Below, piece after piece: positions 3,071-16,635 of a DNA stretch of 64,000 nt; positions within the stretch are counted from its first letter, which is position 1, and each line of letters opens with the position of its first letter. Location: NCBI GenBank assembly GCA_944384855.1, contig CALWUY010000050.1, forward strand, positions 62,001 to 126,000, in the 5' to 3' direction. This stretch comes from an uncultured Clostridia bacterium (lineage in GTDB: Bacteria; Bacillota; Clostridia; Oscillospirales; Acutalibacteraceae). Position numbers and translations under genes: made by a program. Below the pieces are notes generated by a model. It was not told where the DNA came from. It saw only the letters and a list, made by a program, of their open reading frames with translations, and did not search any database.

Positions 3071-3610
3071 TTATAATTTCATTCCTGTTTCATACGCTTC
3101 TTTTAAAGCTATATGACCGTTTATGTCCCCTGCGTCATTGACTCCGCCTGCAAATATTGTCTTTTTAAGATTTGCCTTTTCAAAGCAGTCAACCCAGCCT
3201 TGCACGGCTGTTTCTGTTCCCTTAACCGTTTGGGATTGGTTCTCAGCAGCGGTTGCCAGCAGATAAATATCACGGAATTTGTAATCTGATGCGAAAAGCG
3301 GATTTGCTCGGTCAAGCAAGGTCTTGAGTTGACCGCAAACACTGTAATAATAAACAGGTGTAGCAAATACAAGGACATCGGCTTTCAGCATTTTTTCGAC
3401 GATCTCTCTGCTGTCATCGTCAATAACGCATTTCAGCGTTTTATTGCAGGCAAGACAGCCTTTGCAAAAGTTTATTGTTTTACCTGCGAGACTTATTTTC
3501 TCTGCATTGTGTCCTGCTTCTTTTGCACCTTTCATAAACTGATCTGCGAGTGCTTCGGAATTACTGCCATTACGCAGACTCGATGATATGATAAGTACAT
3601 TTTTGCTCAT
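3071..3610 (-). CDS. Flavodoxin-fold NADPH-dependent FMN reductase
   Basis: This is a 179-residue flavoprotein of the NADPH-dependent FMN reductase / multimeric flavodoxin family. The N-terminus [18 protein letters not shown] is the FMN phosphate-binding loop. [11 protein letters not shown] (about residues 51-60) carries cysteines typical of the iron-sulfur flavoprotein-like subgroup, and [19 protein letters not shown] is the second FMN contact. Its start overlaps the stop of the upstream acetyltransferase in an ATGA arrangement, so translation is probably coupled. It likely supplies reduced flavin or reduces quinone-like or disulfide substrates in the cytoplasm. The natural substrate cannot be told from sequence. 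Confidence 0.85.
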
Positions 3611-4191
3611 AATGATTTCTCCGTTTCATAAATATATTTTATAATTTTTGCGGGCACGCCGCCTGCTACAACATTTTCGGGAACATCTTTTGTAACAACT
3701 GCACCTGCCGCAATTACAGAATTATCTCCAATTGTAACACCTGAAAGAACTGTTGCGTTAGCTCCGATCCACACATTTTTGCCTATGGTAATCGGAGCAG
3801 GAATAACAGTTCTGCGATTTTCGGGAGTTAAATCGTGATTTAGGGTTGCAAGTACAACATTGTGACCGATTTGTGCGCCATCACCGATATAAATCCCACC
3901 TTGGTCCTGAAAGTGACATCCCGCGTTGATAAATACATTTTTACCGATATGAATATTTTTTCCGCAGTCTGTATAAAACGGCGGAAATAAAGCAAAGGTT
4001 TCGTCAACCTGTTCTCCAATCAGTTCTGAAAACAAACTGCGGATTTCTGCTCGTTCGTGATAGGAATCGTTTAGATTTGTTGTGATTTTTCTAGCCTCAT
4101 CGCTGAGCATAGACATCATATCTCTGACTTCTGTACCAACAGGAGCAGGCAACCCCTGATTCATATAAGAAATAAATTCTTTTATTTCCAT
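3607..4191 (-). CDS. Sugar O-acetyltransferase (maltose/galactoside type)
   Basis: A left-handed beta-helix acetyltransferase of 194 residues in the maa/lacA family, transferring acetyl from acetyl-CoA to sugars. Hexapeptide repeats run through the C-terminal half ([69 protein letters not shown]; each cited in part). The catalytic His is in ATLNHD. ATG 4191 is chosen because AGGAGGG lies five bases upstream; the TTG at 4203 is inside that ribosome site. It is the first gene of the minus operon and shares a 137-base divergent promoter region with the LysR gene. Confidence 0.85.
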
Positions 4192-15407: not shown

Positions 15408-15539
15408 ATGAAAAGGAAAATTTTAGTATGTATTTTAGCCGGTGCGGTAATTTTATTAGTTATGTTGAACGTTCGAAAGGTGTTTTCGGTAACAACGAAG
15501 CAATCGACCGTGATACAAAAAGGCATATGCAGAAAATAA
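15408..15539 (+). CDS. Small single-pass membrane peptide, or remnant
   Basis: A 43-residue ORF with MKRK, one hydrophobic helix (about residues 5-21) and a basic tail. It has a strong GGAGG seven bases before the ATG, a good promoter upstream and a terminator downstream, so it is probably expressed. It could equally be the truncated start of a longer exported protein, since it looks like a signal anchor with nothing after it. No family recognised. Confidence 0.4.
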   Translation: MKRKILVCILAGAVILLVMLNVRKVFSVTTKQSTVIQKGICRK

Positions 15540-15569
15540 ATAAGGCTTTAAATGTTTAAAAATATAAGG

Positions 15570-15639: not shown

Positions 15640-16410
15640 CTAAAAGGTTTTTATTCCCTTATAAATATAGTACGGTTTTGAGTAAAGGTAAGTACCGTTC
15701 TTATCTGCTTCTATAAGATTATTTATAAACTCATCATATTCTTGTTTTGTAAGCACTCCTGTGTTTTCGCCATCCACATAATCGGTATTTTCGCCCACAA
15801 GCCAACCGATGTTTTGGCTGAACTCATAACCGAACATACCTTCTTTGTATTCCGTTTCAAAAACACTATGAACACATATACTGCTTTCAAAAAAGCCGGA
15901 GTTATTAAACACTCCATAAATTCTTCTGCCCATCCATCCGTCGAGGTCTTCCATCCATCCTTGTTTTGTTACGGCATACGAGTGAATGCATTTTGTAATT
16001 AAATCTTGATTTTCGCCGTTATAAACAACACTATCAAAATCAGCGTGTACACATATTACTGTTCCGCCTGGCTTCAAAATCCTATTTATCTCACTCACGA
16101 AGGTTGCTTTATCGCTAATACATTCAAGCAAGTCTTTAGTTAATACCAAATCAAATGTATTATCAGGGAAATCGAGTTTGCCTGCACAGTTCATAATTTT
16201 AAGTTCTACAGGCGGGCTATACGGAATAACGCCAAAATTCCTATCGGTTACATCTACGCCTATCGCTTTTGTGACTTTGCCGGGAAATTCGTTTATAATT
16301 CCGTTAAGATAGCCTGCATTCCTGCACCCTAAATCCACAATGGCGGCGTTATCGGGTAGGTTTATTAGTTCATATATTGCTTCGTTAAGCGATGATTTGT
16401 TTATCTTCAT
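15640..16410 (-). CDS. Class I SAM-dependent methyltransferase, attenuator-controlled
   Basis: A 256-residue Rossmann-fold methyltransferase. Motif I is AAIVDLGCRNAGYL, motif II IGVDVTD, motif IV FDLVLTKDLLECI and post-motif ILKPGGTVICVHADFDSVVY. These fit the UbiE/COQ5-like group that methylates small molecules. The C-terminal half (WMEDLDGWMGRRIYGVFNNSG and a Tyr-rich tail) is not one I can place; it lacks the motifs of Erm, RlmA or Cfr rRNA methylases. ATG 16410 follows AAGGAG at good spacing. The 170-base leader carries a 10-codon ORF and alternative hairpins like those of antibiotic-induced resistance genes, so the enzyme may modify or protect against a ribosome-targeting drug. That role is inference. 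Confidence 0.8.
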   Translation of the reverse strand: MKINKSSLNEAIYELINLPDNAAIVDLGCRNAGYLNGIINEFPGKVTKAIGVDVTDRNFGVIPYSPPVELKIMNCAGKLDFPDNTFDLVLTKDLLECISDKATFVSEINRILKPGGTVICVHADFDSVVYNGENQDLITKCIHSYAVTKQGWMEDLDGWMGRRIYGVFNNSGFFESSICVHSVFETEYKEGMFGYEFSQNIGWLVGENTDYVDGENTGVLTKQEYDEFINNLIEADKNGTYLYSKPYYIYKGIKTF

Positions 16411-16425
16411 AACAATTCTCCTTAG

Positions 16426-16464
16426 AATAAAAATACTGTTGGTAGCATTTGTGCCATCAACAGT
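16426..16464 (-). terminator. Attenuator terminator before the methyltransferase
   Basis: On the minus strand ACTGTTG pairs with CAACAGT (16458-16464 with 16435-16441), followed by TATTTTTATT, ending just ahead of the gene's ribosome site. Its 5' arm and loop overlap GGCACAAA (16448-16455), which can pair instead with TTTGTGCC (16502-16509). Confidence 0.6.
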
Positions 16465-16487
16465 ACAATAAAAAGTTAAGTTTCTTT

Positions 16488-16568
16488 TCATCATTCGTTT
16501 AGGCACAAAGCGAAATAAGCCTGTACCTAAATCAGATACAAGCCTTCATGGCTTACGTCGAATGATGA
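16488..16568 (-). promoter_or_regulatory. Alternative-pairing leader (attenuator) region
   Basis: Minus strand. A 10-bp perfect pair joins codons of the leader peptide (16559-16568) to 16488-16497. A 12-bp stem with G-U pairs joins 16534-16545 to 16517-16528. An AAGCC/GGCTT hairpin covers the leader stop codon. A ribosome stalled in the leader ORF would block these helices and free TTTGTGCC for antitermination. Confidence 0.6.
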
Positions 16569-16578
16569 TAGAGAACAT
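16546..16578 (-). CDS. Leader peptide of ten codons
   Basis: The ORF MFSIIIRRKP-stop starts at ATG 16578 with GGAGG eight bases upstream and a near-consensus promoter just before it. It overlaps one arm of the long-range leader helix. Arg-Arg-Lys near the end matches the '+x+' pattern at which macrolide-bound ribosomes are known to stall, and the hydrophobic SIII recalls Erm leader peptides. A regulatory role is inferred from layout. Confidence 0.6.
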   Translation of the reverse strand: MFSIIIRRKP

Positions 16579-16606
16579 AACCTCAACCTCCAATTAGATT
16601 TATTAA

Positions 16607-16635
16607 ATAATAACCAGAAATCGCCTTATTGTCAA
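16607..16635 (-). promoter_or_regulatory. Strong promoter of the attenuated methyltransferase
   Basis: Minus strand TTGACA (16630-16635), 17 bases, TATTAT (16607-16612). Transcription should begin near 16600, about 20 bases before the leader peptide start. Confidence 0.8.

Follow-up and report, generated by a model that had tools for sequence, protein, structure and literature searches.

The present analysis concerns a methyltransferase gene and the leader that precedes it, both on the minus strand of a 64,000-nucleotide stretch of DNA from an uncultured Clostridia bacterium (contig CALWUY010000050.1, positions 62,001 to 126,000; hereafter the window). The original prediction, made from the sequence alone, had proposed that a leader peptide controls this gene by transcription attenuation and had listed a promoter, a 10-codon open reading frame (ORF) with its own GGAGG, a 10-bp helix using leader codons, a 12-bp stem, a terminator whose U tract ends just before the ribosome site of the gene, and an 8-bp antiterminator pair. 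All these elements were located in the window, together with an additional conserved pairing, helix Y, which was absent from that list and sequesters the antiterminator strand. The attenuator is very probably genuine. In the direction of transcription, the features are the following:

16607 to 16635, minus strand: putative promoter TTGACA-17-TATTAT (11 of 12 positions match)
16546 to 16578, minus strand: leader ORF encoding MFSIIIRRKP, with a Shine-Dalgarno (SD) sequence GGAGG at 16591-16587
16488 to 16568, minus strand: 10-bp helix using leader codons, 16568-16559 with 16497-16488 (RNA folding, comparison with shuffled sequences)
16517 to 16545, minus strand: helix X, 16545-16535 with 16527-16517 (folding and pair counts in the alignment)
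16498 to 16531, minus strand: helix Y, 16531-16522 with 16507-16498 (folding and pair counts)
16448 to 16509, minus strand: 8-bp antiterminator TTTGTGCC/GGCACAAA, 16509-16502 with 16455-16448 (pair counts)
16426 to 16464, minus strand: intrinsic terminator, hairpin 16464-16435 and U tract 16434-16426 (folding and pair counts)
15640 to 16410, minus strand: class I S-adenosylmethionine (SAM)-dependent methyltransferase of 256 amino acids, isoelectric point (pI) 4.6 (coding part 15643-16410, stop codon 15640-15642)

The two arginine (Arg) codons of the leader, CGA CGT, lie at 16560-16555, and helix X begins immediately 3′ of the leader stop codon. The stem predicted there exists, but its length is 11 bp by coordinate count, or 13 pairs with a 3-base loop by stem search, instead of 12 bp. 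The SD sequence of the methyltransferase gene lies at 16423-16418 and its ATG begins at 16410. The leader RNA is predicted to fold at -64.4 kcal/mol (z score -6.8), a stability equalled by none of 200 shuffled sequences. Promoter-like sites are not above chance in the 64-kb stretch (five found, 6.9 expected). The scan of the window against Rfam gave no family reaching its gathering score, and the leader had a single chance-level match (tsr32, E value 0.35). A hairpin formed by AAGCC/GGCTT (16554-16550 with 16544-16540) was considered as a part of the switch and rejected, being confined to the window with no conservation.

Conservation of the leader among homologous loci

The alignment of homologous loci revealed the attenuator layout in 25 distinct leaders, including that of the window. 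This set omits (i) L045, L046, L050 and L063, which lie on the same contigs as L003, L002, L010 and L012, (ii) L010, whose start is cut off, (iii) L056, which has no leader start by the pattern used, (iv) the distant L042-L044 and (v) L082, a leader of argS described below. The comparison of homologues that the original prediction had proposed as a check showed that both the leader ORF and the helices are conserved. The ORF and its SD sequence are kept among homologues whose proteins share 57-93% identity with that of the window, and in all 25 leaders the short ORF ends in or close to a cluster of two to five arginines; the encoded peptides include MFSIIIRRKP (window), MFSIIIRRRR, MYSIIIRRRRR, MFSIIIRRVR, MFFIIIRRCR, MTFFIRRRRR, MFFISIRRRRR and MFFISVRCRRI. 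A promoter-like pair matching at least 9 of 12 positions is found upstream of 23 leaders (best match, no chance control), the exceptions being L052, whose best pair matches 6 of 12, and L005, unscorable because its contig begins there.

The helices are paired in nearly all alignment cells: 95.9% for X (10 pairs counted), 98.0% for the antiterminator, 99.1% for Y (three pairs with two-sided change) and 96.3% for the terminator (four pairs with two-sided change). Taken jointly, Y and the terminator are paired in 97.5% of cells, compared to at most 45.9% after sliding, and display seven pairs with two-sided change. The corresponding values for X and the antiterminator are 96.9% and at most 50.3%. 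These two helices have only two pairs with two-sided change, a count matched by 143 of 500 shuffles, while their 12 cells and their covariation score were matched by none of the 500. In one antiterminator column pair (91:158), UA occurs in 11 leaders, GC in four, GU in four and AU in three, the three others being unpaired. The 10-bp helix using leader codons is less uniform: it beats 95% of shuffles in 17 leaders but not in the other eight, and its register differs between groups. Since the layout is shared by 25 leaders and the pairs are kept with compensatory changes, the attenuator is not a product of chance, which bears out the architecture proposed originally.

Two loci outside this set should be noted. 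The leader of L056 (1390-1500) is apparently decayed: a tail encoding RRKR followed by a stop codon remains, and the leader pattern used finds no SD sequence plus start. Furthermore, L042, whose protein is 37% identical, carries at 120-300 a strong terminator of its own upstream of the gene, and possibly also a short ORF encoding MYKGKGA, with K-G-K.

Ribosome position, arginine codons and the argS leader

Nascent-RNA folds, in which the RNA ended before the 3′ arm of the terminator and two ribosome footprints were tried, suggest that the position of the ribosome may set the switch. When codons 4-6 occupied the P site, helix X was closed and the antiterminator formed in all 25 leaders with either footprint; with the P site at codon 8, it formed in 25 or 20 of them, depending on the footprint. 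The 5′ side of the terminator was paired upstream with a mean of 0.59 when the P site was on the last leader codon, compared to 0.95 when it was before the first Arg codon. The pairing depended on the ribosome by more than 0.3 in 12 of the 25 real leaders, compared to eight of 150 shuffled ones.

A ribosome reading the leader fast would reach the stop codon beside X and open X, allowing Y to form; Y would sequester the antiterminator strand, the terminator would form and the gene would be off. A ribosome waiting at the Arg codons (codons 7-8 of the window leader, 7-11 across the family) would leave X closed, the antiterminator strand would pair with the 5′ side of the terminator and the RNA polymerase would read into the gene. 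This is the logic of the classical his, leu and trp attenuators, which carry tandem control codons, terminate when the ribosome reaches the stop codon, antiterminate when it stalls and govern biosynthetic operons. The target here differs, being a methyltransferase encoded by a single, apparently mobile gene and, in one case, argS. Stalling at the arginine run is probably the trigger.

The choice of codons in this run is peculiar. CGA represents 52 of the 107 Arg codons of the 25 leaders, compared to 25 of 753 (3.3%) in 37 ORFs of the window, 71 of 863 (8.2%) in the ORFs flanking 20 homologues and three of 105 in 21 methyltransferase genes (L005, L006, L011, L012 and L056 not included). Codon 7 is CGA in 22 leaders; among the three others, the first Arg codon is CGA at codon 9 in L052 and AGA at codon 6 in L051 and L053. 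The leaders exhibit tandem Arg codons at the sensing position with a bias to a rare codon, as would be expected of an attenuator responding to arginine or arginine transfer RNA (tRNA-Arg). The enzymes themselves are poor in arginine (1.2-2.8% across the 21 genes), and the window enzyme ranks lowest in Arg share among the 41 window ORFs of at least 200 amino acids that were called mechanically; such a paucity is expected for a gene expressed while Arg-tRNA is short.

A covariance model of the leader (R1) was run on 300 genomes of the family to which the window belongs and matched 24 of them at an E value of 0.01. Eighteen genomes, including that of the window, have matches below 1e-20 and all of them carry the methyltransferase. 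One further match is clear (E value 2.3e-9) and lies in a genome, G1103, without any methyltransferase match:

L082, 1501 to 1644, minus strand: homologous leader before argS (R1 match)

This leader encodes MLFVCTRHIH, whose codon 7 is CGA. Its promoter, X stem and antiterminator strand resemble those of the methyltransferase leaders, and the arginyl-tRNA synthetase gene that it precedes starts roughly 120-150 bases past the terminator. Folding of its nascent RNA reproduced the switch, with another pairing of the leader. G1103 gave no match to the common ArgS type, present in 15 of the 16 genomes tested, and the argS gene of L082 may be its only copy (the genome is 87% complete, and no search for a further copy of this type was made). 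The remaining R1 matches have E values of 9e-5 or weaker. L083-L088 and L090 (9e-5 and worse) were rejected, being located at terminators, tRNAs or either end of a gene, as were L089 and L091, which overlap true leaders on the opposite strand. In a sample from the class, R1 matched only the genome of the window (one of 196).

What the leader may sense

The CGA choice, the Arg-poor enzyme and the argS leader point, instead of or alongside a drug, to arginyl-tRNA supply. Overall, the best explanation, which we hold tentatively, would be a ribosome-controlled attenuator that senses scarce charged tRNA-Arg and commands a laterally spread methyltransferase. The signal would be slow decoding of CGA or other CGN codons when charged tRNA-Arg is scarce, and the candidate causes are an arginyl-tRNA synthetase inhibitor, an arginine antimetabolite, damage to tRNA-Arg or plain arginine shortage. 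The effector would be an acidic, stand-alone methyltransferase whose substrate is a protein or small molecule and not ribosomal RNA (rRNA), with the leader and the gene spreading laterally as a unit. In a more specific version, which we consider quite unlikely, the cassette would be induced by, and protect against, agents depleting the charged tRNA-Arg of the CGN box (for instance a toxin damaging tRNA-Arg or an inhibitor of arginyl-tRNA synthetase): the shortage would be sensed at the CGA codons, the enzyme would need few such codons, the agent would be disarmed by methylation, and the same sensor would raise argS in another genome.

Leaders whose Arg codons sense arginine have been described elsewhere. 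According to the available part of PMC6386406, Salmonella speF is under the control of a pair of adjacent Arg codons in orf34, whether these are rare or frequent, and the available part of PMC13009471 describes the Staphylococcus aureus leader rbfL (MVLKYRKR) as a sensor of arginine. As proposed for the present leaders, expression downstream changes in both systems when the ribosome pauses at Arg codons that are consecutive or rare. However, as far as these two partly available sources describe them, they act through Rho, RNA folding and RNase G, or covering of the ribosome-binding site, without any intrinsic terminator/antiterminator pair, and their downstream genes are unrelated.

Several observations weigh against sensing of charged tRNA-Arg by such a switch. 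Concerning the folds, equilibrium folding of the complete leader ends in the terminator in all 25 cases, whether free, stalled or with a ribosome at the stop codon, so that the ON state must be kinetic; the folding suggested as a check by the original prediction thus confirmed a highly stable leader RNA but gave only the terminator at full length, including in the window. Likewise, the full-length L082 leader forms its terminator at every ribosome position tried. In nascent RNA, the antiterminator is already present in 19 of the 25 leaders without translation and still prevails in 15 or 16 of them with the P site at codon 10, with Y rising; in the leader of the window, it stays at 0.99 at this position, without switching back at the stop. 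Thirteen leaders are below the 0.3 threshold for ribosome-dependent pairing. Concerning arginine, the leader of the window has just two Arg codons, the possible leader of L042 carries K-G-K and no Arg, and the argS leader is a single case whose peptide has one Arg. No such stem was found, with one pattern, before 12 other argS genes of the L082 type (the starts of L096 and L102 being uncertain). The low Arg count of the window enzyme is weak on its own (binomial 0.015), the flanks of L004, L061 and L062 are roughly as Arg-poor as the methyltransferase, the enzymes of L051-L053 use CGN freely (13 of 19), and L044 shows no such leader yet has 2.4% Arg. Moreover, since rare and frequent Arg codons are equivalent in speF, CGA is not required for sensing (PMC6386406, from the part available), and no link between the methyltransferase and arginine is known.

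A sensor of macrolide or ketolide type is a somewhat less likely alternative, over which scarcity of charged tRNA-Arg is slightly favoured as the signal. A drug in the exit tunnel would stall the ribosome at R/K-X-R/K, the same helices would switch and the methyltransferase would modify the drug or its target, causing resistance. This motif, the stalling sequence invoked by the original prediction, is indeed present in all 25 leader peptides, as in macrolide leaders: L051 and L053 end in FIRRRRR, the window retains it with a lysine (RRK), and K-G-K may precede the terminator of L042. However, the motif is met by any Arg run, and its retention tests little because any single substitution in a run of four arginines leaves R-X-R.

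Among the closest known systems is tlrB (yxjB) of Bacillus subtilis: with tylosin, ribosomes stall at RYR of its 9-amino-acid leader MIIQFIRYR, and stall-dependent read-through of a terminator placed before the gene governs expression of a methyltransferase (PMC6851288, available in part). According to the same portion of this source, the product of tlrB is RlmAII and the SD sequence of the gene is also masked by the leader, whereas the window system has a separate covarying antiterminator, a CGA-rich Arg run and an acidic non-RlmA enzyme. Similarly, the short ErmDL leader has an R-X-R arrest motif at codons 6-8, RLR, at which telithromycin and erythromycin stall ribosomes, but ErmD methylates A2058 of 23S rRNA and ermD is induced by mRNA refolding and not by a terminator/antiterminator pair (PMC8298421, in the part available). 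The gene is patchy and mobile-looking in gut bacteria, which fits drug resistance. Nevertheless, this alternative leaves the CGA preference, the Arg-poor enzyme and the argS leader unexplained, and the window protein is below every NCBIfam cut-off, with a pI mildly against an rRNA enzyme. Furthermore, rbfL ends in R-K-R yet senses arginine (PMC13009471, partly available). The attenuator and the motif proposed originally are supported and the gene looks mobile, while a ribosome-drug inducer is not established and the arginine evidence competes with it.

Even less likely than the specific defence mentioned above would be a general sensor of translation speed, in which the CGA-rich Arg codons are inherently slow and any slowing of elongation favours read-through, without a single drug or amino acid as signal. 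The folds agree with it, as 20 to 25 of the 25 leaders tolerate a stall anywhere in codons 3 to 8, and CGA-containing Arg pairs, which count in favour of tRNA-Arg sensing as well, relieve his attenuation in Salmonella, raising expression in a his-leader assay (PMC4046918, in its available part). Such a sensor would neither require an Arg-poor enzyme nor explain argS as a second target. Finally, a chance or decayed structure without regulatory role is very improbable: the case for attenuation is made of sequence and fold models, L056 has the gene without a leader start by the pattern used and the window leader does not switch off at its stop codon in the fold model, but the compensatory changes and the maintenance of the leader ORF and SD sequence across homologues 57-93% identical oppose it.

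Leader-peptide attenuators are markers of genes answering to translational stress, and the codon choice makes the question of drug versus arginine directly testable. Either outcome would be useful, pointing to a novel enzyme that modifies a drug or to a defence geared to tRNA-Arg. As a caution, R-X-R in a leader peptide is by itself no evidence of macrolide sensing. In the partly available literature on attenuators, on antibiotic inactivation by methylation and on leaders of argS or with Arg codons, nothing was recognized as this system, and among the matches listed for the leader peptide strings, none was on leader peptides.

The methyltransferase and its probable spread

The description of the methyltransferase as unclassified agrees with our searches: the window protein matches solely generic methyltransferase families at an E value of 0.001 and reaches no NCBIfam cut-off, and PHROGs and PADLOC gave weak generic matches alone. 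Among the four best matches to solved structures viewed as alignments, 3mgg, a methyltransferase of unnamed function, is the only one aligned over nearly the full length. The pI ranges from 4.6 to 8.1 over 25 aligned proteins, and the acidic value of the window protein is mildly against an rRNA substrate. Two identities were rejected. RlmA/TlrB was discarded since no RlmA family is among the matches of the window protein; the RlmA model NF008300 is matched by nine of the 25 aligned proteins (best E value 5.5e-7), more weakly than many other methyltransferase models, and the alignment with the RlmA structure 1p91 is limited to profile positions 16-121, the common SAM core. Erm rRNA dimethylase was discarded since PF00398 (RrnaAD), which we take to be the erm domain, is not among these matches.

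The scan of genome contigs identified 11 loci in named metagenome-assembled genomes of Clostridia or Oscillospiraceae; titles give goat, sheep or deer gut for nine of them, the other two belonging to one genome without stated source. At an E value of 1e-12, the methyltransferase is found in 19 of the 300 genomes of the family, including that of the window, and in none of 146 other genomes sampled from the order, one of 390 from the class and two of 397 from the phylum. Three other genomes of the same genus gave no methyltransferase match.

Leader and gene appear to be transferred together between genera, as a unit of 1 kb. In a comparison of nine loci, the segment common to most pairs is limited to about 970 bp and runs approximately from the -10 element to the stop codon. 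The pairs sharing more are the near-identical L005 and L006, the L006-L008 group, and the window and L002 (1173 bp); L002 and L003 also share a second piece of 412 bp. Three genomes of other genera have methyltransferases with 93%, 93% and, over a partial copy, about 91% identity to that of the window, compared to 73%, 68% and 66% for RarA; for more distant copies, the identities of both proteins are near 60%. In L002, a reverse transcriptase and a serine recombinase are encoded downstream of the methyltransferase. A related remnant lies beside the gene in the window:

15434 to 15553, plus strand: tail of a reverse-transcriptase gene (40 codons), 90% identical to the end of the 437-amino-acid one of L002

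It is likely a trace of a mobile element. Three leader variants gave no match in plasmid DNA; among plasmid proteins, two records match the window protein at about 25% identity and 57 match that of L042, all below 60%. Neither the window leader nor the window protein matched phages, and viral contigs contained neither the leader pattern nor a relative of the protein.

Some neighbours of the methyltransferase should also be mentioned. A row of genes of small-molecule type, two of them with GNAT domains, lies upstream of the methyltransferase in L003 (556-3649), and the ORF at 3209-3649 of this row is related to a NUDIX-domain ORF of L002 (151-597). In L009 (765-7868), the methyltransferase gene is located between a gene with PF00398 (rRNA adenine dimethylase domain) and an argS of the common type.
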